Below, one piece after another: positions 21,818-30,892 of a DNA stretch of 64,000 bases; the first letter of the stretch is position 1, and each line of letters opens with the position of its first letter. The stretch comes from Gammaproteobacteria bacterium (GTDB lineage Bacteria; Pseudomonadota; Gammaproteobacteria; Tenderiales; Tenderiaceae). A program made the position numbers and the translations under genes. The notes below the pieces were generated by a model. It worked only from the letters and a program-made list of their open reading frames with translations, was not told the DNA's origin and made no database searches. Where the stretch lies: contig JAKFXL010000023.1 in the NCBI GenBank assembly GCA_021731365.1, forward strand, positions 1-64,000, read 5' to 3'.

Positions 21818-22270
21818 CTAAATTTCATAAGGGTTATTGATATTCAACTGCGCCAGAATCTCAACCTCAAGTCCTTCCATCTCATCCGCGTCTGCCTCTT
21901 CAATATGGTCATAACCGAGCAGATGCAACACCCCATGCACCACCATGTGGGCCCAGTGGGAGATAGCCGGTTTGCCTTGCTCCAGCGCCTCCACCTCCAC
22001 CACTGCGGCACAGATCACCACATCACCCAACAGCGGCAACTCAACCCCTGGGGGCGCTTCAAACGGAAAGGAGAGTACGTTGGTCGGTTTGTCCTGATGA
22101 CGATAGATACGATTAAGCTGCTGCATCTCATCACGGGTCACAATACGCACCGTCAGCTCCGCCGTCTCGACAAAACCGGCCAACGCCGCCTCCACCCAGC
22201 GCTGCACCGTATCAACACCCGGCAGTACGCCACCTTTGGTTGCGTACTGAACATCAAGATCAACCGTCAT
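21818..22270 (-). CDS. ybeY: Endoribonuclease YbeY, rRNA maturation
   Basis: A 150-residue zinc metalloprotein needed for 16S rRNA 3'-end processing and 70S quality control. The metal-binding [11 protein letters not shown] motif (HxxxHxxGxDH) is intact near residue 115, and the substrate-groove Arg lies in [20 protein letters not shown]. The start codon overlaps the phoH stop by four bases (ATGA), so the two are translationally coupled, as is usual for this pair. Confidence 0.95.
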
Positions 22271-23298
22271 GATTGTCGTTTGCCCAGGGGCTGACTCGAC
22301 GTCACACTCCCCTCAACTTCCGCCTCATGTGTCTCGTACGCCATCACAATGCGCTGCACCAGGGGATGGCGCACCACATCCCTGGCACTGAAAAAGGTAA
22401 AACTGATGCCGTTTACATCGCGCAAAATATCAATCACATGACGCAGTCCCGAGTCGCGACTGCTGGGCAGATCCACCTGGGTCACGTCACCCGTCACTAT
22501 CGCCTTCGAGTTAAAGCCGATACGGGTCAGGAACATCTTCATCTGCTCTTTGGTGGTGTTCTGCGCCTCATCGAGGATGATAAAGGCGTCGCTCAAGGTG
22601 CGGCCGCGCATGTAGGCCAGTGGCGCAATCTCAATCACCTGCCGCTCCATCAACTTCACTACCCGCTCAAAGCCGAGCATCTCATGCAGGGCATCGTAGA
22701 GTGGACGCAGATAAGGATCTATTTTTTGAACCAAGTCACCCGGCAGAAAACCGAGCCGCTCACCCGCCTCCACCGCTGGGCGGGTCAGGATGATGCGCTG
22801 CACCTTGTCCTGTTCCAGTGCTTCAACGGCGCAGGCCACCGCCAGATAGGTCTTGCCGGTTCCGGCGGGGCCAACACCAAAACTCAGGTCATGGGTACGG
22901 ACGGCTTGCAGGTAACGCACCTGATTGGCGCCGCGGCCTTTGACAAAGCCGTGGCGGGTCTTGATCACCGCCGGCTCGATCACCACCGCAGACTCTGCCT
23001 TGGTCACCGATTCACCCAGCTCACCCAGCCACTGCTGCAACAACAGATGTACAGACTCAGGCGTCACCGGCTCACGGTCAGCCGCCGCATACAGGATTTT
23101 AATCACCGTGGCAGCCGCAGTCACCCGCGCCTCATCGTCGCCGATGATGCGAAAAACATTAGCACGGTTGTTGATTTCGACCCCCAGACGCTGCTCTATC
23201 TGCCGCAAATGGTCATCAAACTGACCACACAGATGGGCCAGGCGCTGGTTATCGGCAGGCTCAAGAATAAAGTCGGAAGTTATCGGTTGACCGTTCAA
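22267..23298 (-). CDS. ybeZ: PhoH-family ATPase (YbeZ)
   Basis: A P-loop ATPase of the PhoH-like family, implicated with YbeY in RNA metabolism. Walker A is [13 protein letters not shown] and Walker [12 protein letters not shown]; the catalytic region RGRTLSDAF is present. No ATG is available at the right place. I prefer TTG 23298 because it leads straight into [12 protein letters not shown], which matches the family N-terminus; GTG 23340 would add 14 residues. Length is then 343, close to the E. coli protein. An antisense frame spans the whole gene but is a coding shadow. Confidence 0.9.
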
Positions 23299-23393
23299 AA
23301 TTATATATATCAGTATGGAGTGGGTGAAATTGAAACACACTCTGTCATTAAAGACTAGCCATAAGCGCTACGACTACCATTAACCCGCTGATT

Positions 23394-24731
23394 TTACTCA
23401 ACAAGCTCACCACGAAGCGAGTTAGGCTGGGCCTCGACGATACGCACAGTCACAAACTGCCCGATCATCTTGGTAACATCGCCACCCCGGCAATCAAAGT
23501 TGACCACGCGACTATTTTCAGTGCGCCCGGCCAGCTCAGAGGCGTCACGGGTTGAGGGACGCTCCACCAATATACATTGCAGTGTGCCCACCATCTGCTC
23601 GCTGATGGCCATCGTCATCTCATTGATACGCGCCTGAAGGCGGGCAAGACGGGCCTGCTTTACCGCCAGCGGCACATCATCCGGCAGTGAAGAGGCCGGT
23701 GTACCGGGACGCTGACTATATATAAAGCTAAACGAACGGTCGTAGCCAACATCCTCAATCAGCTGCATCGTCGCCTCAAAATCGGCGTCGGTCTCGCCGG
23801 GAAAACCGATAATAAAGTCAGACGACATCGCCAGATCCGGACGCACCTCACGCAAGCGCCGCACAATCGCCTTATACTCCAGCGCCGTATGGCCACGTTT
23901 CATCATGGCCAGAATCCGGTCGGAACCGCTCTGCACCGGCAGATGTAGGTGGCTCACCAGCTCCGGCACCTCGGCATAGGCGCGGATCAGACTGTCGTTC
24001 ATCTCGATCGGGTGGGAGGTGGTGAAACGGATACGCTCAATCCCCTCAATCGCCGCAACGTAGTGGATCAGCAGACCGAGATCAGCAATCTCGCCGTCAT
24101 GCATCACACCACGATAGGCGTTAACGTTCTGCCCCAGCAGATTGACCTCGCGCACCCCTTGGGCCGCCAGCTTGGCCACCTCGGCCAGCACATCGTCAAA
24201 CGGACGGTTGATCTCTTCACCACGGGTATAGGGAACCACACAGAAGGTGCAGTATTTAGAACACCCCTCCATGATCGAGACATAGGCCATGGGGCCATCG
24301 GCCCGTGGCTCCGGCAGGCGATCGAACTTTTCAATCTCTGGGAAAGAGATGTCGATCACCGGTGCCCGCTTAAGGCGAGCAGCACGAATCAGCTCCGGCA
24401 GGCGGTGCAACGTCTGCGGACCAAAGATCACATCCACATAGGGGGCACGAACACGAATCGCCTCCCCCTCCTGGCTGGCAACACACCCGCCGACGCCAAT
24501 CACCAGATGGGGCCGTTTTTTCTTCAACTCACGCCAGCGCCCGAGCTGCGAGAAGACCTTCTCCTGCGCCTTTTCACGCACCGAACAGGTATTCAGCAGC
24601 AGCACATCGGCCAGCTCGGCCTCTGTGGTCAACTCCAGACCATGGGACTCATTGAGCAGATCCGCCATCTTGGAGGAGTCGTACTCGTTCATCTGACAAC
24701 CGAAGGTTTTGATAAACAGTTTCTGGGCCAT
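23394..24731 (-). CDS. miaB: tRNA-2-methylthio-N6-isopentenyladenosine synthase
   Basis: Radical-SAM methylthiotransferase acting on i6A37 of tRNAs. The N-terminal MTTase domain has cluster-binding Cys12, Cys49 and Cys83. The radical SAM motif CSKYCTFC is at 157-164, and a C-terminal TRAM domain ([20 protein letters not shown]) is present. ATG 24731 gives 445 residues starting [18 protein letters not shown], the canonical start; the longer frame from 24809 is not conserved. It is the first gene of the miaB-phoH-ybeY-ybeX-lnt block, 95 bases ahead of phoH. Confidence 0.96.
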
Positions 24732-24860
24732 AAAAAACTCAGGTCTAATGCGGGGAAAAGGGGGCAAAGCATACCATTTCTGAAAGTACGCCGCCAAAGC
24801 ACATATCAAGCGCCGTCACCGCAACAGATGCCGCCTCGTTTGTTGAAGCAGAATCAAAGG

Positions 24861-25763
24861 CTAGTTATTCGCAGGGTTCAGTTTGAGCAAACTATCTGCC
24901 TGAGCCATTGGCAGCCATAAGGCAAGTTGAGCCAGTATGTCGTGGAGTGGACGATGGGTGCGCCGAGCGGCGGCGGTAACGCACTTTAGCAGACAGCGGT
25001 TTGTGGTTTTGGCCTTTGCTGCCAACAGAAAATAAAACTGCCAGTCGGTCAATTGCTCGCAGGAGACATGATAATGAGCGCGTTTCACGCAGAGGTAACT
25101 GATGCCAGTTTCAGGCGGTTCGGCAGGGACACTGCCACGGAGCAAGGCTTGAAAAGCGCCCAACGGGTGATGGGTAACCACCAGGCGAGTGGTTTCTGGA
25201 AGAACAACCTCAATGTTGCCGCCCAGTAACAGGTCAAAAGGGTCAACTATTTCAAAGTCACTGCTTTCGAACCCCGTTGCTCGTAACGACGCGGCCATGG
25301 CCCGCTCGATTTGGGCTAAATCAAGAGGAAAAACCAGCTTTCCATCATCTGCCGCTTTAACCGAAGCACTTTGAGAGCGGCGAAGAAACTGAGCAAATCC
25401 GTCACCGAGTTCATACAGTGAAAAGCCGCGGGGTGGGTGGCTGCTCAGATATGCACGGCAGAAAAACTCAAACAGCGATTCGCCAAGCAAACGTTGCAAT
25501 GCTGGGTAATCCGCCTTCAGGCAGGCAAACAGGCGTAACCAATACCCCTGGGCATAAATATCAAGGCGACTATGAGGTGAGATGCCCGGTGGCACTTCAA
25601 TAACATCCTCGATCATCCAGCTGCGGGTTTTCCGGGCGTGTGCCAAACCGTCCGGAAGCCCTTCAGGTGCCGTGATTGCGCTCATCATCCAGCGCTGCAG
25701 GGAGGCAAGATCGGGAGAGTCCGAGTGGTTATTTTGCGCCATTGTACGAGTTTTTATATCCAT
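24861..25763 (-). CDS. DUF2063 partner protein of the MNIO enzyme (BufC/HvfC-like)
   Basis: A 300-residue protein of the DUF2063 family. The N-terminal domain has the typical SRLDIYAQGYWLRLFACLKA, LGESLFEFFCRAYLSSHP and GFSLYELGDGFAQFLRRS signatures. The second half (~140-290) is less conserved. In bufferin and related pathways such proteins bind the precursor and assist the DUF692 oxidase. It overlaps the end of the DUF692 gene, so the two are translationally linked. ATG 25763 overlaps by 35 bases and ATG 25742 by 14; neither has a good ribosome site. It is the third gene of the ferritin-like/DUF692/DUF2063 operon. No DoxX-like BufD/HvfD gene accompanies it. Confidence 0.85.
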   Translation of the reverse strand: MDIKTRTMAQNNHSDSPDLASLQRWMMSAITAPEGLPDGLAHARKTRSWMIEDVIEVPPGISPHSRLDIYAQGYWLRLFACLKADYPALQRLLGESLFEFFCRAYLSSHPPRGFSLYELGDGFAQFLRRSQSASVKAADDGKLVFPLDLAQIERAMAASLRATGFESSDFEIVDPFDLLLGGNIEVVLPETTRLVVTHHPLGAFQALLRGSVPAEPPETGISYLCVKRAHYHVSCEQLTDWQFYFLLAAKAKTTNRCLLKCVTAAARRTHRPLHDILAQLALWLPMAQADSLLKLNPANN

Positions 25764-26694
25764 TACTGGGGATGTTGGTCAGTTGAAAATCGATAGGGGT
25801 AGAGAGCACTGTCTGTTTATCGACTGATGCAACAGGCGTAGATGTGAGTGTATCGGGCATGACGCCGTTCAACATTAAATGCCTAGCTTTGTTGAGTTCG
25901 GCGAGAAGATCGGGGTAGTTGGGTATCTTAGCATCCCACTCGAGCAGGGTAGAAACACCTCCCGTCAACGTTTGAGCAAGCGAATAGAGCTCCCAAACAG
26001 GTGCCGGAACGGGCGCATCGTGAGTGTCAACCATATACTCTTCGCAGAGGGTCGGCCCCGCCAGATGGATTTGCACCACATGGTCATGGGGTATTGAGCG
26101 GATGTAATGCTCCGCATCAAAACGGTGATTATGGGCGCTGACATAGACGTTGTTCACATCGAGTAACAGTCCGCACTGGGTTGCTTCAACCAGTTCCGTG
26201 ATGAACTCCCACTCAGTCATGGTAGAAGAACGGAATTGAACATAGCTGCTGGGGTTTTCTATGATCAGCGGACGTTCAAGAATCTCCTGAACCTCTCGCA
26301 CCCGTTGTGTTACATGTTTCAACGACGCTTCATTAAACGGGAGTGGTAAAAGGTCGTGGGAGTTGTGACTGCCCAGTCCTGTCCAACACAGATGGTCGGA
26401 TATCCAGGCGGCATTGACGCGCCCAGCAAGTTTTTTCAACTTGTCGAGGTAGTCTCGGTTCAAGGGTGACGCACTGCCAATCGAAAGGGATACGCCGTGC
26501 ATCACAATAGGAATATCTGTTGATAACCGCTCCACCACACTGTTGGTGTAACCCGAGTTATCCATAAAATTTTCAGAGATGATTTCGAACCAGTCAACAC
26601 GTAGCCCCCCGGACAAAATCTCCGGGAGGTGTTGTGTACGCAGGCCGACACCGAAACCCAGGTTAGGCAGACCCAAACGGCTCTTCTTTTGCAT
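25729..26694 (-). CDS. DUF692 multinuclear non-heme iron oxidase (MNIO, MbnB/BufB-like)
   Basis: A 321-residue TIM-barrel enzyme of DUF692. Members modify Cys or other residues in ribosomally made precursors, for example to oxazolone/thioamide (MbnB) or thiooxazole (BufB). Conserved metal-ligand candidates are visible: His66 (VMHGVSLSIG), Asp100-His101 (ISDHLCW), Glu146-Asn147 (IIENPSSY), Asp179/Asn181 (LLLDVNNVYV), His188/His190, His210 (QIHLAG), Asp223/His225 (VDTHD), and Glu252/Asp254 (LEWD). The N-terminal GFGVGLRTQHLPEIL is typical. The gene begins 11 bases after the ferritin-like gene and overlaps the DUF2063 gene. The usual short precursor peptide is absent; the likely substrate is the large protein upstream. 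Confidence 0.92.
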   Translation of the reverse strand: MQKKSRLGLPNLGFGVGLRTQHLPEILSGGLRVDWFEIISENFMDNSGYTNSVVERLSTDIPIVMHGVSLSIGSASPLNRDYLDKLKKLAGRVNAAWISDHLCWTGLGSHNSHDLLPLPFNEASLKHVTQRVREVQEILERPLIIENPSSYVQFRSSTMTEWEFITELVEATQCGLLLDVNNVYVSAHNHRFDAEHYIRSIPHDHVVQIHLAGPTLCEEYMVDTHDAPVPAPVWELYSLAQTLTGGVSTLLEWDAKIPNYPDLLAELNKARHLMLNGVMPDTLTSTPVASVDKQTVLSTPIDFQLTNIPSNGYKNSYNGAK

Positions 26695-26705
26695 CGTGGT
26701 TGCGA

Positions 26706-28637
26706 TTAGTTCGGCGGTATAACGGTACGCAGATCGTTTGCCGCAGGTTTGCTTGGGGCTGGGCTGCCGGGGTTTTTACTGGCATAGATCGCTGTATAAG
26801 CGGCCCATGCCGCGTCGTACACCTTCTCGTTACTGGTGAAGGAGAGCGTATTCGGCGGTATGGCTGCACCGGTATCAATGTCGATTACATCCATTGTTCC
26901 ACCGCCTGGCACACTGAGCAGCTGCCAATTTGAGATTGGCGCGCCGCACCCTCCTTTTTGGGCACAGGTATTGTCGCTGGGGGCAATATAGTTTCCAGTC
27001 GCATTTTTAACTGGATAGCCGCACCCGCCCTGCCCTTTGTGCAAATTAGAGCCGGAGCAGGTATGGAAGGCAGAGATATCTGCACAGTTGTTGCCGGGGT
27101 TGGTGATACTCAACCCCTGACAAGCGTGATACTCGTCTGTAGTGGTGGGGGTCGGAAGAGCCGCTGAAAGATCCGGGGCAGCACCCATCACTGCCCAATA
27201 CAACGACATGCGATCTCCTGATGCCCTCATTGCTTGGTTGGGGAATGCTTTTGTACTATCGCCCCAGGAGAGGGTCAGCGCACTATTGATGCCGTTGATA
27301 GCACCTACAATAAGGCTATTCAGGAGCTCTTCAGAGCCGGTTTTCAACCCATTAAGGGCATTAGCGACATCCGTCGGCGTAGGCAAAGCAGGATTAGGAA
27401 CATAATCACTGGTTTGAAGATCGGCCCCCGTCCAGGCATTGCCCGCTGCAAACCACTGCGTAAAGGTCATGAATCCATCTGTAGCGATCACATCGGTTAA
27501 GTTGTTGAAGCGCTCCCAATGGTCAATCTCATCTCCGGTAACACGTGCGTCAGCGTCGCCAGAGCCAGGATAATCGATGGCAAGCGCGGCTTTATCCGGT
27601 TGAAACTGCAATTGAACATCATTGGTTGCCACGTGATCGATAAAGGTTGTTTTGTTGTCAACAATGACGGCCCCGACGCGCTCCTGAAGATAGAGACGAA
27701 AACCCTTAAGGGCGTTTTTGATGCCGCCTTCGCCTTGATCGGAAATACCCCTGATCATATCTGCCGCCTGAATAATCGCCAGTGAAGGATCAGATGCACT
27801 AATCTGTGTAGGCATACGGGGATATTCAGGATTGTGGTATTTCGTCATCCCGTTAAACACATCTCGCTGCTTGCTTAAATTTGTAGCGTCGAACATTTTT
27901 GTCCATAAAGTCTCCCCATCGCTGTACTCAATGGTGATGTACTTGAGCAAACAGTTATACATCCAGCCGATGGTGCCAAAGAGTGGCAGATCCTTTTCTG
28001 TATTTGCACTTGCCCAGTTAACAAAAGGCACAGCCGGGAAATAGTTGTCACGCGCATCAGGCTTAATATCGGCAAGGGCGACCTCATGTGACTGCTCAAT
28101 GGCCAGAAACAGATTGATCTGCTCCTGATTCAATTCACCGATGTCGACATTGACCGAGGCGTAAGTCATCGTATCTGTCAGATCGAGGATATGGGGGATT
28201 ACGGTGTTAGTCGGCCCATAACAGCCCCAGCCACCCGCTGCGTTTTCCAGAAGAGAGCCGGTAAAAAACTTAGGCGTGACGCCCAGCACAACGGCCAGGT
28301 TAGCCGCCAATTGCAAATGCAGCATCTCCTGAATGAAGACACTAAACATGGTGTTGTACGCCTCTTGATTGGGCGTAAGCACTGTGCCAGGAGGTGTGGG
28401 TGTTGTCGACATGCCCGCCCAAAGACGACCCTTAGCAAGCGGGTTGCTAATTTTATGGGTGCCCTGAATTGATGACATGGCACACAGATAGAGTGGGATT
28501 GTGAAATTTTCCACATTGACGGCACCTTGGGCCAGTGCTGCTACCGCCGACTTGTCCAGATCAAGATTAGAGAGATCACGCTTTGTGATAGGCATAAAGT
28601 TTTTAGGGATAACACCTTTAAGCGCAGCTTCAGACAT
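26706..28637 (-). CDS. Ferritin-like (VioB-type) protein with C-terminal MNIO-type Cys motif region
   Basis: A 643-residue cytoplasmic-looking protein without signal peptide. ATG 28637 has AAGGA 8-9 bases upstream. The N-terminal half matches the ferritin-like domain seen in VioB/iminophenyl-pyruvate dimer synthases: VENFTIPLYLCAMSSI (Glu43), FIQEMLHLQLAANLAVVLG (Glu104, His107), then Glu181/Glu185 and GTIGWMYNCLL. These are plausible diiron ligands. The C-terminal part has six Cys at 506, 518, 527, 539, 558 and 564, in ACQGLS, NNCADI, HTCSGSNLHKGQGGCGYP and NTCAQKGGCGAP. The KGQGGCG repeats recall Cys motifs in DUF692 substrates. An 80-residue tail follows. It is the first gene of the DUF692/DUF2063 operon. 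I infer that it is both enzyme-like body and modified substrate; its reaction is unknown. Confidence 0.75.
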   Translation of the reverse strand: MSEAALKGVIPKNFMPITKRDLSNLDLDKSAVAALAQGAVNVENFTIPLYLCAMSSIQGTHKISNPLAKGRLWAGMSTTPTPPGTVLTPNQEAYNTMFSVFIQEMLHLQLAANLAVVLGVTPKFFTGSLLENAAGGWGCYGPTNTVIPHILDLTDTMTYASVNVDIGELNQEQINLFLAIEQSHEVALADIKPDARDNYFPAVPFVNWASANTEKDLPLFGTIGWMYNCLLKYITIEYSDGETLWTKMFDATNLSKQRDVFNGMTKYHNPEYPRMPTQISASDPSLAIIQAADMIRGISDQGEGGIKNALKGFRLYLQERVGAVIVDNKTTFIDHVATNDVQLQFQPDKAALAIDYPGSGDADARVTGDEIDHWERFNNLTDVIATDGFMTFTQWFAAGNAWTGADLQTSDYVPNPALPTPTDVANALNGLKTGSEELLNSLIVGAINGINSALTLSWGDSTKAFPNQAMRASGDRMSLYWAVMGAAPDLSAALPTPTTTDEYHACQGLSITNPGNNCADISAFHTCSGSNLHKGQGGCGYPVKNATGNYIAPSDNTCAQKGGCGAPISNWQLLSVPGGGTMDVIDIDTGAAIPPNTLSFTSNEKVYDAAWAAYTAIYASKNPGSPAPSKPAANDLRTVIPPN

Positions 28638-28763: not shown

Positions 28764-28949
28764 TGTAGCTACCCATACATGAAAGAGATGGTGGAAGCCC
28801 GTGGCGTTAACGCTGACCGCTCCAGCCTCAGCCGCTGGACATTCAAATAGACACCTGTTCTGGAAGGTGCATTTTGGCAAAGAAAATATTCCGTGGGTAC
28901 GCGCTGGCGCAGTGATGAGACTTAAGGAATCTCAGGGGCATTTGTAATG
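28764..28949 (+). pseudogene. IS6-family transposase relic
   Basis: The plus strand reads CSYPYMKEMVEARGVNADRS then SLSRW, followed by a stop, and further on in the next segment VGTRWRSDET, then a second disruption. These match two consecutive conserved pieces of IS6-type DDE transposases (LSYRDLxEMMxERGxxxDxSTIxRW and VGxxWRxDETY, the latter carrying the first catalytic Asp). The region between is shortened, and stops or frameshifts break it, so it cannot be functional. No terminal inverted repeats were found. It occupies most of the 358-base gap upstream of the ferritin-like gene (28638-28995); the rest shows nothing recognisable. Confidence 0.6.
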
Positions 28950-28995: not shown

Positions 28996-29550
28996 TCATC
29001 TCTTAAGGCTATAGATATTGGCGCTCCAATAACTGCTTTTATGCTCAAGGGGTGCTACCCACCCTGCCGCCACCAGCGCCTTGGCGATCAAGCGATTCAT
29101 AATGCCGTGCCCCACCAGCAGTACCGGCCCTTTTTCCGCCAGAGTAATCAGCCGCAGGGCCGCTGCCTTGGCTCGCGATTTAGTCTCACCCAATGAATCA
29201 ACACCCCTGCTATAGCCACAAAGCCATAGCAGGCGGAACAGCACCACCCAGATACCCGGTGGAAGAGGCAAGAGTCGCCATTGGGCATACGGCAGTGGCG
29301 CTTCACAGAATAGTGGGTCAATCAGAGGATGGGCACACCCCAGCGCCTGTGCTGACGAAAGGGCTCGGGGCAGGGGGCTGGTGATAACGGTTGTCTCTGG
29401 GTCAATCAACGTCAACAGATTTTTGGGGGCACTCTCCATGGCCACCACGGCTTGGTTGTACTGATCGATCCACCTCCCCATCTCTGCCGCACGGCACCAG
29501 CCGGTTACAGGCAGCAGCGGCTTACCGTGGCGCATGAGGGTGATTTTCAT
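28996..29550 (-). CDS. Histidine phosphatase family protein
   Basis: A 184-residue member of the phosphoglycerate-mutase-like superfamily. The catalytic LMRHG motif lies at residues ~5-9, the second Arg in TSPLPRALSSAQAL, and the second catalytic His in LLVGHGIMNRLIAK. ATG 29550 is chosen because MKITLMRHGKP is the standard opening; the frame extends to 29601 without family support. The substrate is unknown: such proteins dephosphorylate sugar phosphates, nucleotides or proteins. A moderately hydrophobic segment (IWVVLFRLLWLCGYS) is unusual and could be a buried helix. It lies 63 bases downstream of the ammonium transporter in the same direction. Confidence 0.85.
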   Translation of the reverse strand: MKITLMRHGKPLLPVTGWCRAAEMGRWIDQYNQAVVAMESAPKNLLTLIDPETTVITSPLPRALSSAQALGCAHPLIDPLFCEAPLPYAQWRLLPLPPGIWVVLFRLLWLCGYSRGVDSLGETKSRAKAAALRLITLAEKGPVLLVGHGIMNRLIAKALVAAGWVAPLEHKSSYWSANIYSLKR

Positions 29551-29613
29551 GACAAAAGAGCCTGCCACCCCACACTGAAAGGAGAGGTAGCGTGACTCCA
29601 CCGCCTTGCAACA

Positions 29614-30807
29614 CTAATCACGCTGCGGCGTCGCCGCAATCTTGTGAATACTCAAGTCGGCCCCTTGGTACTCCTGCTCCTGAGTCAGGCGTAACCCAAC
29701 CATCTTTTTCAACAGGCCATAGACAATCAATCCACCGGCAAAGGCAATCAACACCCCCACCAGGGTACCGATCAGCTGCGACACAAAACTAACACCGCCC
29801 ATACCACCCAACGCCTCCAGTCCAAAAATCCCGGCGGCAATTCCGCCCCAGACACCACAGAGGCCGTGTAGTGGCCAGACACCCAAAACGTCGTCAATCT
29901 TCCAGCGGTTCTGTGTCTGGATAAAGGCCCAGACAAACAGCGCTCCCGCCACCACGCCGGTGAAGAGCGCTCCCAACGGATGCATTAAATCAGAACCGGC
30001 ACAGACCGCCACCAGACCGGCAAGTGGGCCGTTGTGCACAAAACCAGGGTCGTTACGCCCGATCACCAGCGCCGCCAGCACCCCGCCGACCATCGCCATC
30101 AATGAATTAACAGCCACCAGACCGCTGATGCCGACCACCGACTGCGCCGACATGACGTTGAAACCAAACCAGCCCACCGTCAGTATCCAGGCCCCCAGCG
30201 ACAGAAACGGAATACTGGAGGGTGGATGGGCGTACATCACCCCATCCTTACCGTAACGGCCATGGCGCGGCCCCAATAGCAACACTGCGGCCAGCGCAAT
30301 CCAGCCGCCAACGGCATGCACCACAATGGAACCGGCAAAATCATGGAACTTGGCACCAAAAGTCGTCTCCAGCCACGCCTGCATACCAAAGTTGCCGTTC
30401 CAGGCCATACCTTCAAAGAGTGGGTAGATCAGCCCCACCAGCGCAAAGGTGGCGGCCAGCTGTGGATTGAACTTGGCCCGCTCGGCAATGCCACCAGAGA
30501 CGATGGCCGGGATGGCGGCGGCGAAGGTGAGCAGGAAGAAGAACTTCACCAGCGCCAGACCGTTCTGCTCTGCCAATACCGGCGCGGCATCGAAAAACGA
30601 GACGCCATAGGCCACTGAGTAGCCGATAAAGAAATAGGCGATGGTGGAGACGGCAAAGTCAGCCAATATTTTCACCAGGGCGTTGACCTGGTTTTTATGC
30701 CGCACCGTGCCCATCTCAAGGAAGGCAAAACCGGCGTGCATGGCCAGAACCATCACTGCCCCCATCAATAACAGGAGCACATCACTCCCCGACTGCAAAG
30801 CTTCCAT
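29614..30807 (-). CDS. amtB: Ammonium transporter, Amt family
   Basis: A 397-residue inner-membrane channel with about 11 helices moving ammonia/ammonium. Family segments are AFLEMGTVRHKNQVNALVK, HDFAGSIVVHAVGGWIALA (first conserved pore His), WFGFNVMS, and HPLGALFTGVVAG/WPLHGLCGVWGGIAAG (second pore His). The C-terminal tail GADLSIHK is the remnant of the GlnK-contacting segment. ATG 30807 has GGGAG 7 bases upstream. No glnK gene is adjacent, unlike many amtB operons. A consensus-like promoter lies at 30893-30921, with a dyad just upstream of its -35 element. Confidence 0.95.
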   Translation of the reverse strand: MEALQSGSDVLLLLMGAVMVLAMHAGFAFLEMGTVRHKNQVNALVKILADFAVSTIAYFFIGYSVAYGVSFFDAAPVLAEQNGLALVKFFFLLTFAAAIPAIVSGGIAERAKFNPQLAATFALVGLIYPLFEGMAWNGNFGMQAWLETTFGAKFHDFAGSIVVHAVGGWIALAAVLLLGPRHGRYGKDGVMYAHPPSSIPFLSLGAWILTVGWFGFNVMSAQSVVGISGLVAVNSLMAMVGGVLAALVIGRNDPGFVHNGPLAGLVAVCAGSDLMHPLGALFTGVVAGALFVWAFIQTQNRWKIDDVLGVWPLHGLCGVWGGIAAGIFGLEALGGMGGVSFVSQLIGTLVGVLIAFAGGLIVYGLLKKMVGLRLTQEQEYQGADLSIHKIAATPQRD

Positions 30808-30892
30808 AACAACTCCCAGGATTATGATCACGACTGCCAGAGCGCTCACTCTCACACCCAAAGCAGGCTAGCTGAATATAAAAAATCAGTCC

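Follow-up and report, generated by a model that had tools for sequence, protein, structure and literature searches.

MNIO (DUF692) enzymes working with a DUF2063-type partner are known for installing 5-thiooxazoles at Cys residues, as in their products bufferin 1, oxazolin, gonophorin and fontiphorin (PMC12452194, PMC12668002). Four hydrogens are lost per modified Cys in fontiphorin, and the class has been linked to copper binding (PMC12452194, PMC12668002); likewise the captophorins, which carry 5-thiooxazole groups and bind copper, are copper-associated thiooxazole metallophores (PMC12668002). DUF2063-type partners accompany precursors that have a signal peptide, and the action of MNIOs on proteins has been suggested and left open (Antoine et al. 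2025, PMC12452194). Here, we describe a three-gene operon from a gammaproteobacterium of the family Tenderiaceae, lying within the 64,000-nucleotide stretch of contig JAKFXL010000023.1 that was analysed (hereafter the window), in which the genes of an MNIO and a DUF2063 protein follow that of a ferritin-like protein (FLP). The first-pass annotation of the window had proposed Cys residues of the FLP as the target of the MNIO. This proposal is supported by the genetic linkage, the invariant Cys residues of an FLP loop, a test on unselected genomes, the resemblance of the loop to the BufA2 precursor and the dedicated clade of the enzymes, and the inferential case for the FLP as MNIO substrate, sequence-based as it is, is strong.

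Linkage of the three genes

A profile of three FLPs, searched with peptides from inside the ferritin domain and outside the Cys loop, yielded 157 relatives among 84,980 species, and the best 80 were fetched and examined. In three of the fetched loci the contig breaks off at the FLP gene or shortly after it, leaving 77 testable for an MNIO. The MNIO gene was found directly downstream of the FLP gene and on the same strand in all 77, and the DUF2063 gene was present wherever there was enough sequence (76 of 76). As it recurs in every testable related locus, the FLP-MNIO-DUF2063 architecture is far beyond chance. The unit spans at least five phyla, namely Pseudomonadota (alpha, beta and gamma), Bacteroidota, Actinomycetota, Acidobacteriota and Ignavibacteriota, with Caulobacter, Janthinobacterium, Chromobacterium and Mucilaginibacter among its hosts. 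Two Pseudoalteromonas replicons also carry an FLP gene together with an MNIO gene.

For the unselected test, 398 Pseudomonadota genomes were searched by PF12902 alone, which gave 14 clear PF12902 genes. The Cys loop is encoded by three of these (G000, G613 and G457), the same three that have an MNIO gene next to them, and the remaining 11 have neither; the chance of such a coincidence is 1 in 364. A profile of the loop, run over the same 398 genomes, matched those three FLPs only. Since the loop-bearing PF12902 genes of this unselected sample are the MNIO-adjacent ones, the loop was seen only beside an MNIO. An MNIO-DUF2063 pair travelling without the FLP gene, which the first-pass annotation had regarded as telling against its proposal, was not encountered where checked, as two plasmid MNIOs at about 59% identity are both FLP-linked. 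The plasmid MNIOs next in line (50-52% identity) follow small precursors, in a limited sampling of three inspected cases.

The annotation had also remarked that no short precursor accompanies these genes, and this agrees with our searches at the locus and in the genome. No short Cys-containing open reading frame lies between or beside the operon genes. The MNIO is the only one of the window genome, in which neither a DUF2282 protein nor a match to the BufA2 profile was found (with no positive control in that genome). The idea of a hidden short precursor was dropped on these grounds.

Genes farther out vary among the FLP loci, and no general conserved neighbour gives a clue to function. A recurrent close neighbour was seen only in several Mucilaginibacter loci, where a DyP-type peroxidase-like gene lies directly upstream of the FLP gene on the same strand (L067, L068, L070, L071, L074 and L077); the product from L077 has PDB entry 7anv as its best match (E 3e-26) and no Pfam match.

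Ferritin-like scaffold, cysteine loop and partner enzymes

The FLP passes PF12902 with 65.5 bits over residues 37-307 (gathering cut-off 22.3), which bears out the ferritin-like domain read from the first gene. Its identity as VioB (TIGR04492) was rejected, with no match for the window FLP and 14.4 bits against a cut-off of 1250 for one relative. Residues E43, E104, H107, E181 and H373, the last falling just past the end of the Pfam match, are common to the FLP and tail-less PF12902 proteins, and E303 is present in all compared proteins but one. These four Glu and two His residues are candidate ligands that fit the expected ferritin-type diiron site. Thus, four of the ligand candidates named in the annotation (Glu43, Glu104, His107 and Glu181) are conserved, while Glu185 was ruled out because it is not conserved in the comparison with the tail-less proteins. 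Invariant residues among 82 FLPs are distributed over the whole fold, beyond the loop alone.

AlphaFold2 predicted the FLP structure with a mean predicted local distance difference test score (pLDDT) of 84.8 and a predicted TM (pTM) score of 0.88. Residues 500-509, 516-542 and 553-565 have a pLDDT below 50, and the sequence after the Cys region is ordered; the predicted structure of a Caulobacter relative showed the same pattern of a low-confidence loop and an ordered rest. With Foldseek, the core matched the Caulobacter ferritin-like structure 3hl1 of the PDB (E 6.9e-9, TM 0.66 by target), and no other significant match was obtained. The FLP is probably cytosolic, since a hydropathy scan of the family detected no strongly hydrophobic N-terminal segment.

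The Cys region had been annotated as C-terminal. Its motifs are present as described; its position is internal, as it forms a loop of residues ~504-570 that is followed by ~65 mostly ordered residues. This C-terminal element is conserved too, and it is a possible follower or recognition element. Cys residues 506, 527, 539, 558 and 564 are invariant in all 82 FLPs, position 533 is Cys in 81 and position 518 in 79 of them. Between residues 541 and 553, most relatives have in addition a variable, CG-rich stretch that is missing from the window FLP. The loop Cys residues are not generally followed by Lys, so there is no general Cys-Lys motif. When the loop was compared with a profile of 18 BufA2 (Buf2) precursors from MNIO loci, it scored 29.5, with the stretch HTC-R-GSN-x-C-x-x-QGGCGF, around FLP residues 525-541, against NACKGQNACKGQGF. 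In the controls, 200 column shuffles gave a mean of 10.1 (standard deviation 2.2) and a maximum of 18.1, and with the Cys columns fixed the maximum was 22.3. A likeness to Buf1/DUF2282 was discarded, as it gave no signal (14.4 versus a shuffle mean of 11.0).

The FLP of genome G457 (locus L135, 5806-8034) is a divergent ferritin-like protein of 742 residues with another Cys loop (HACMGLNSCK...NDCKHQGGCGLY...NNECKSMGSCATPI) and an identical three-gene order. It is a second subfamily.

The window MNIO scored 349 bits against PF05114 (cut-off 25) and 348.7 bits against the NCBIfam model of BufB, NF050167 (cut-off 310). Residues H66, H101, E146, D179, N182, H210, D223, H225, E252 and D254 are invariant across all groups compared; H190, which varies in several groups, is the only checked metal-ligand position not kept. 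Among the bufferin-type enzymes, all 79 FLP-linked MNIOs fall into a single clade (support 100/99), to which the MNIO of G457 is sister (support of the joint group 99/96), so a second, independent fusion in G457 is not needed. In known enzymes, the residue after the catalytic Asp contacts the amino acid beside the target Cys and is Phe in Lys-Cys and Asp in Cys-Lys/BufA2 MNIOs (PMC12668002). It is Ala in 76 of the 79 FLP-linked MNIOs, which fits, because the loop has no general Cys-Lys motif. The residue before the catalytic Asp is Trp in all 79, versus Arg in all sampled BufA2 enzymes. Three other loci (L106, L107 and L122) encode BufA2 precursors with duplicated 6-Cys units, and their MNIOs form a clade of their own (100/98).

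The DUF2063 protein of the window passes PF09836 (69 bits versus 27.2), as do nine of the nine relatives tested. As regards the C-terminal RRE domain of a PME-type 1 partner, its residues 58-275 match the HvfC model weakly (28.6 bits versus a cut-off of 142), and one relative gave a sub-threshold match to NGO1945_C.

Proposed modification and competing explanations

We propose that the three genes make up an MNIO modification system that is complete in itself and has a folded, cytosolic protein as its substrate. The FLP, with a CC_0557-type ferritin-like fold and an intact ligand set, would display a flexible loop of ~65 residues with BufA2-like Cys, and the DUF2063 protein would present this loop to the MNIO. 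The MNIO would then carry out a four-electron oxidation of some of the conserved loop Cys. The most likely products are 5-thiooxazoles, because the characterised MNIOs with a DUF2063-type partner make them; four hydrogens would be lost per site, and an absorbance near 305 nm would result. Adjacent to the ferritin-like site, the modified loop would most likely bind copper or another soft metal, and the result may be a protein of the cytosol that handles metal or carries out metal-dependent redox chemistry. As the best explanation of the locus, the installation of thiooxazoles on the loop of the cytosolic FLP by the MNIO and the DUF2063 protein is, taken as a whole, likely. Judged on its parts, modification of the loop very probably occurs, its nature as a thiooxazole is by analogy reasonably probable, and a role of the modified loop in metal binding or buffering is a tentative assignment, somewhat short of an even chance. 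It is doubtful that the FLPs are a widespread family of ferritin-like diiron enzymes with an MNIO-made thiooxazole loop for an integral cofactor or a second metal site.

Several observations weigh against this proposal. The query was built from MNIO-linked FLPs and the loci analysed were the best 80 of 157. The window FLP is the sole one of 82 that lacks Cys533, having His there in the motif GSNxC. Bufferins are exported, whereas no signal peptide is apparent in the FLP, and the family is an exception to the association of DUF2063-type partners with signal peptides. No recurring neighbour in the FLP loci points to copper. The loop and BufA2 are alike in one stretch only, and the cut-off of the BufA2 model NF050166 was not reached, the window FLP giving no match and the best relative 12 bits versus 60. 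As its loop fails this model, the FLP, judged from its sequence, is not a member of BufA2 and resembles it within one stretch of the loop.

The main functional rival holds that the modified Cys is a protein-derived cofactor of a diiron-type oxidase, catalytic or relaying electrons in the manner of formylglycine or a quinone, and not a metal store. Such an enzyme would account for the conservation of the ferritin-type ligand set, tail-less homologues included, and of residues throughout the fold, and it would suit the peroxidase genes in front of the FLP in Mucilaginibacter as well as the fungal PF12902 genes that neighbour the amino-acid-oxidase genes lodA/lodB (PMC4417212). However, the neighbourhood lacks a recurring substrate or pathway partner, the loop is predicted to be disordered and not packed at any site, and the characterised MNIO/DUF2063 products bind copper (PMC12452194, PMC12668002). 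We regard this explanation as unlikely.

It is far less probable that the FLP is a tailoring enzyme helping the MNIO and the DUF2063 protein on a small precursor encoded elsewhere, with the Cys loop not being a substrate. Extra enzymes are possible in MNIO clusters, and Antoine et al. judged the products of HExxH and peptidyl-tRNA-hydrolase genes beside MNIOs to be enzymes (PMC12452194), but the genome search gave no DUF2282 or BufA2-like precursor and the locus no small Cys frame. Moreover, the invariant-Cys loop was found solely in MNIO-linked PF12902 proteins and is BufA2-like, and the FLP gene occupies the position of the precursor gene, as bufA does before bufB and bufC. The loop Cys could also stay unmodified, binding metal or forming disulphides, while the MNIO acts on another FLP residue, for instance in the C-terminal element. 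MNIOs of other subfamilies are known to target Asp, Asn and Phe, and the C-terminal element is conserved as well; yet those enzymes belong to other sequence clusters, whereas the window MNIO is of the BufB type and has a DUF2063 partner, a group known for Cys chemistry, and the loop resembles a Cys substrate, BufA2. This last alternative seems to us the most improbable.

The locus and its relation to known systems

The features of the locus are collected in Table 1. The operon of three tightly spaced genes, which lies on the minus strand, was annotated correctly, including the motifs KGQGGCG and QKGGCGAP. A gap of 11 bases separates the FLP stop from the MNIO gene, and the MNIO and DUF2063 genes overlap by 35 bases. 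From an alternative GTG start upstream, the FLP would have 655 residues instead of 643.

Table 1. Features of the FLP operon, in window coordinates.
Feature	Position	Strand	Remarks
FLP gene, ferritin-like, 643 residues	26706..28637	-	Predicted MNIO substrate; no evident signal peptide
PF12902 ferritin-like domain, FLP residues 37-307	27717..28529	-	Pfam; candidate diiron-type ligands; 3hl1 fold match
Cys-rich internal loop, FLP residues 504-570	26928..27128	-	Cys 506, 518, 527, 539, 558, 564; predicted disordered
C-terminal element past the loop, FLP residues 578-643	26709..26906	-	Ordered strands and helix
MNIO (DUF692/PF05114), BufB type, 321 residues	25729..26694	-	Ligands and D254 conserved; EWDA at 252-255
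DUF2063 (PF09836) partner, PME-type 1, 300 residues	24861..25763	-	Pfam

The G+C content of the operon (24861-28637) is 0.50-0.53, versus 0.56-0.58 in the flanking miaB, phoH, phosphatase and amt genes (22267-24809 and 28996-30861). None of the searched genomes from the window's own family carries an FLP, and the nearest relative of the window MNIO, at 77% identity, is found in a Comamonadaceae bin. Together, these three observations suggest that the operon was acquired horizontally. Just upstream of the FLP gene lies a short plus-strand frame, YMKEMVEARGVNADRSSLSRWTFK (28774-28850), without a Pfam match. It resembles a fragment of an IS6-type transposase and may be one. No conserved regulatory motif was evident upstream, and comparing the upstream spacer with plasmids for similarity gave no match. 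A role in anti-phage defence was dropped, as PADLOC gave no match.

MNIO enzymes that have a DUF2063 partner make up one of the largest groups of peptide modifiers still to be charted. The FLP family offers a clean, conserved test case with one substrate, one enzyme and one partner. The unit suggests that whole folded proteins, beyond small peptides, receive MNIO modification. If the proposal is true, thiooxazole chemistry would reach beyond secreted peptides that bind copper to a folded metalloprotein of the cytosol, the link between DUF2063 and signal peptides would be broken, and a branch of the PF12902 family would gain a role. Were the loop indeed a cofactor or second metal site, a dedicated modifying pair of the natural-product type would mature a folded cytosolic metalloenzyme, and protein-derived cofactor systems would gain a new class.

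The main text of Antoine et al. 2025 does not mention ferritin or VioB (PMC12452194). Among 5.39 million open papers, no relevant one joining DUF692 or MNIO with ferritin was found, and a mention in subscription journals or supplementary tables is possible.

Among described systems, the FLP unit is like BufA2-BufB-BufC (Buf2, a Cys-Lys captophorin) in the order precursor-MNIO-DUF2063, in having a BufB-type MNIO above the NF050167 cut-off and in a loop stretch resembling CKGQNxCKGQGF. It differs in that the FLP has 643 residues (706-775 in two relatives) and no evident signal peptide, whereas BufA2 precursors are secreted and have 80-100 residues; the loop also remains below the BufA2 model cut-off, and the contact residue of the enzyme is Ala instead of the Asp of BufA2 MNIOs. 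The MerC-Buf1, MerC-Buf2 and Buf1-cytochrome c-FGE sulfatase proteins (Antoine et al. 2025, PMC12452194) likewise combine a bufferin-like module on a functional protein with an MNIO. However, the MerC and cytochrome c fusions are few and match the bufferin signatures (PMC12452194), while the FLPs are a conserved family with their own MNIO clade and a ferritin-like scaffold. The TIGR04222 membrane proteins are also large proposed MNIO substrates with a C-proximal Cys segment, but unlike the FLP they are located in the membrane, have no ferritin fold and have a PME-type 2 partner or none (PMC12452194). CC_0557 (PDB 3hl1, PF12902) shares the core fold and the ferritin-type ligand motifs with the FLP; its structure has 289 modelled residues versus 643 in the FLP, and the sampled tail-less PF12902 genes have neither the Cys loop nor an MNIO neighbour. 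What is new in the unit is its kind of substrate; the enzymes are known, and the substrate motif is related to a known one.

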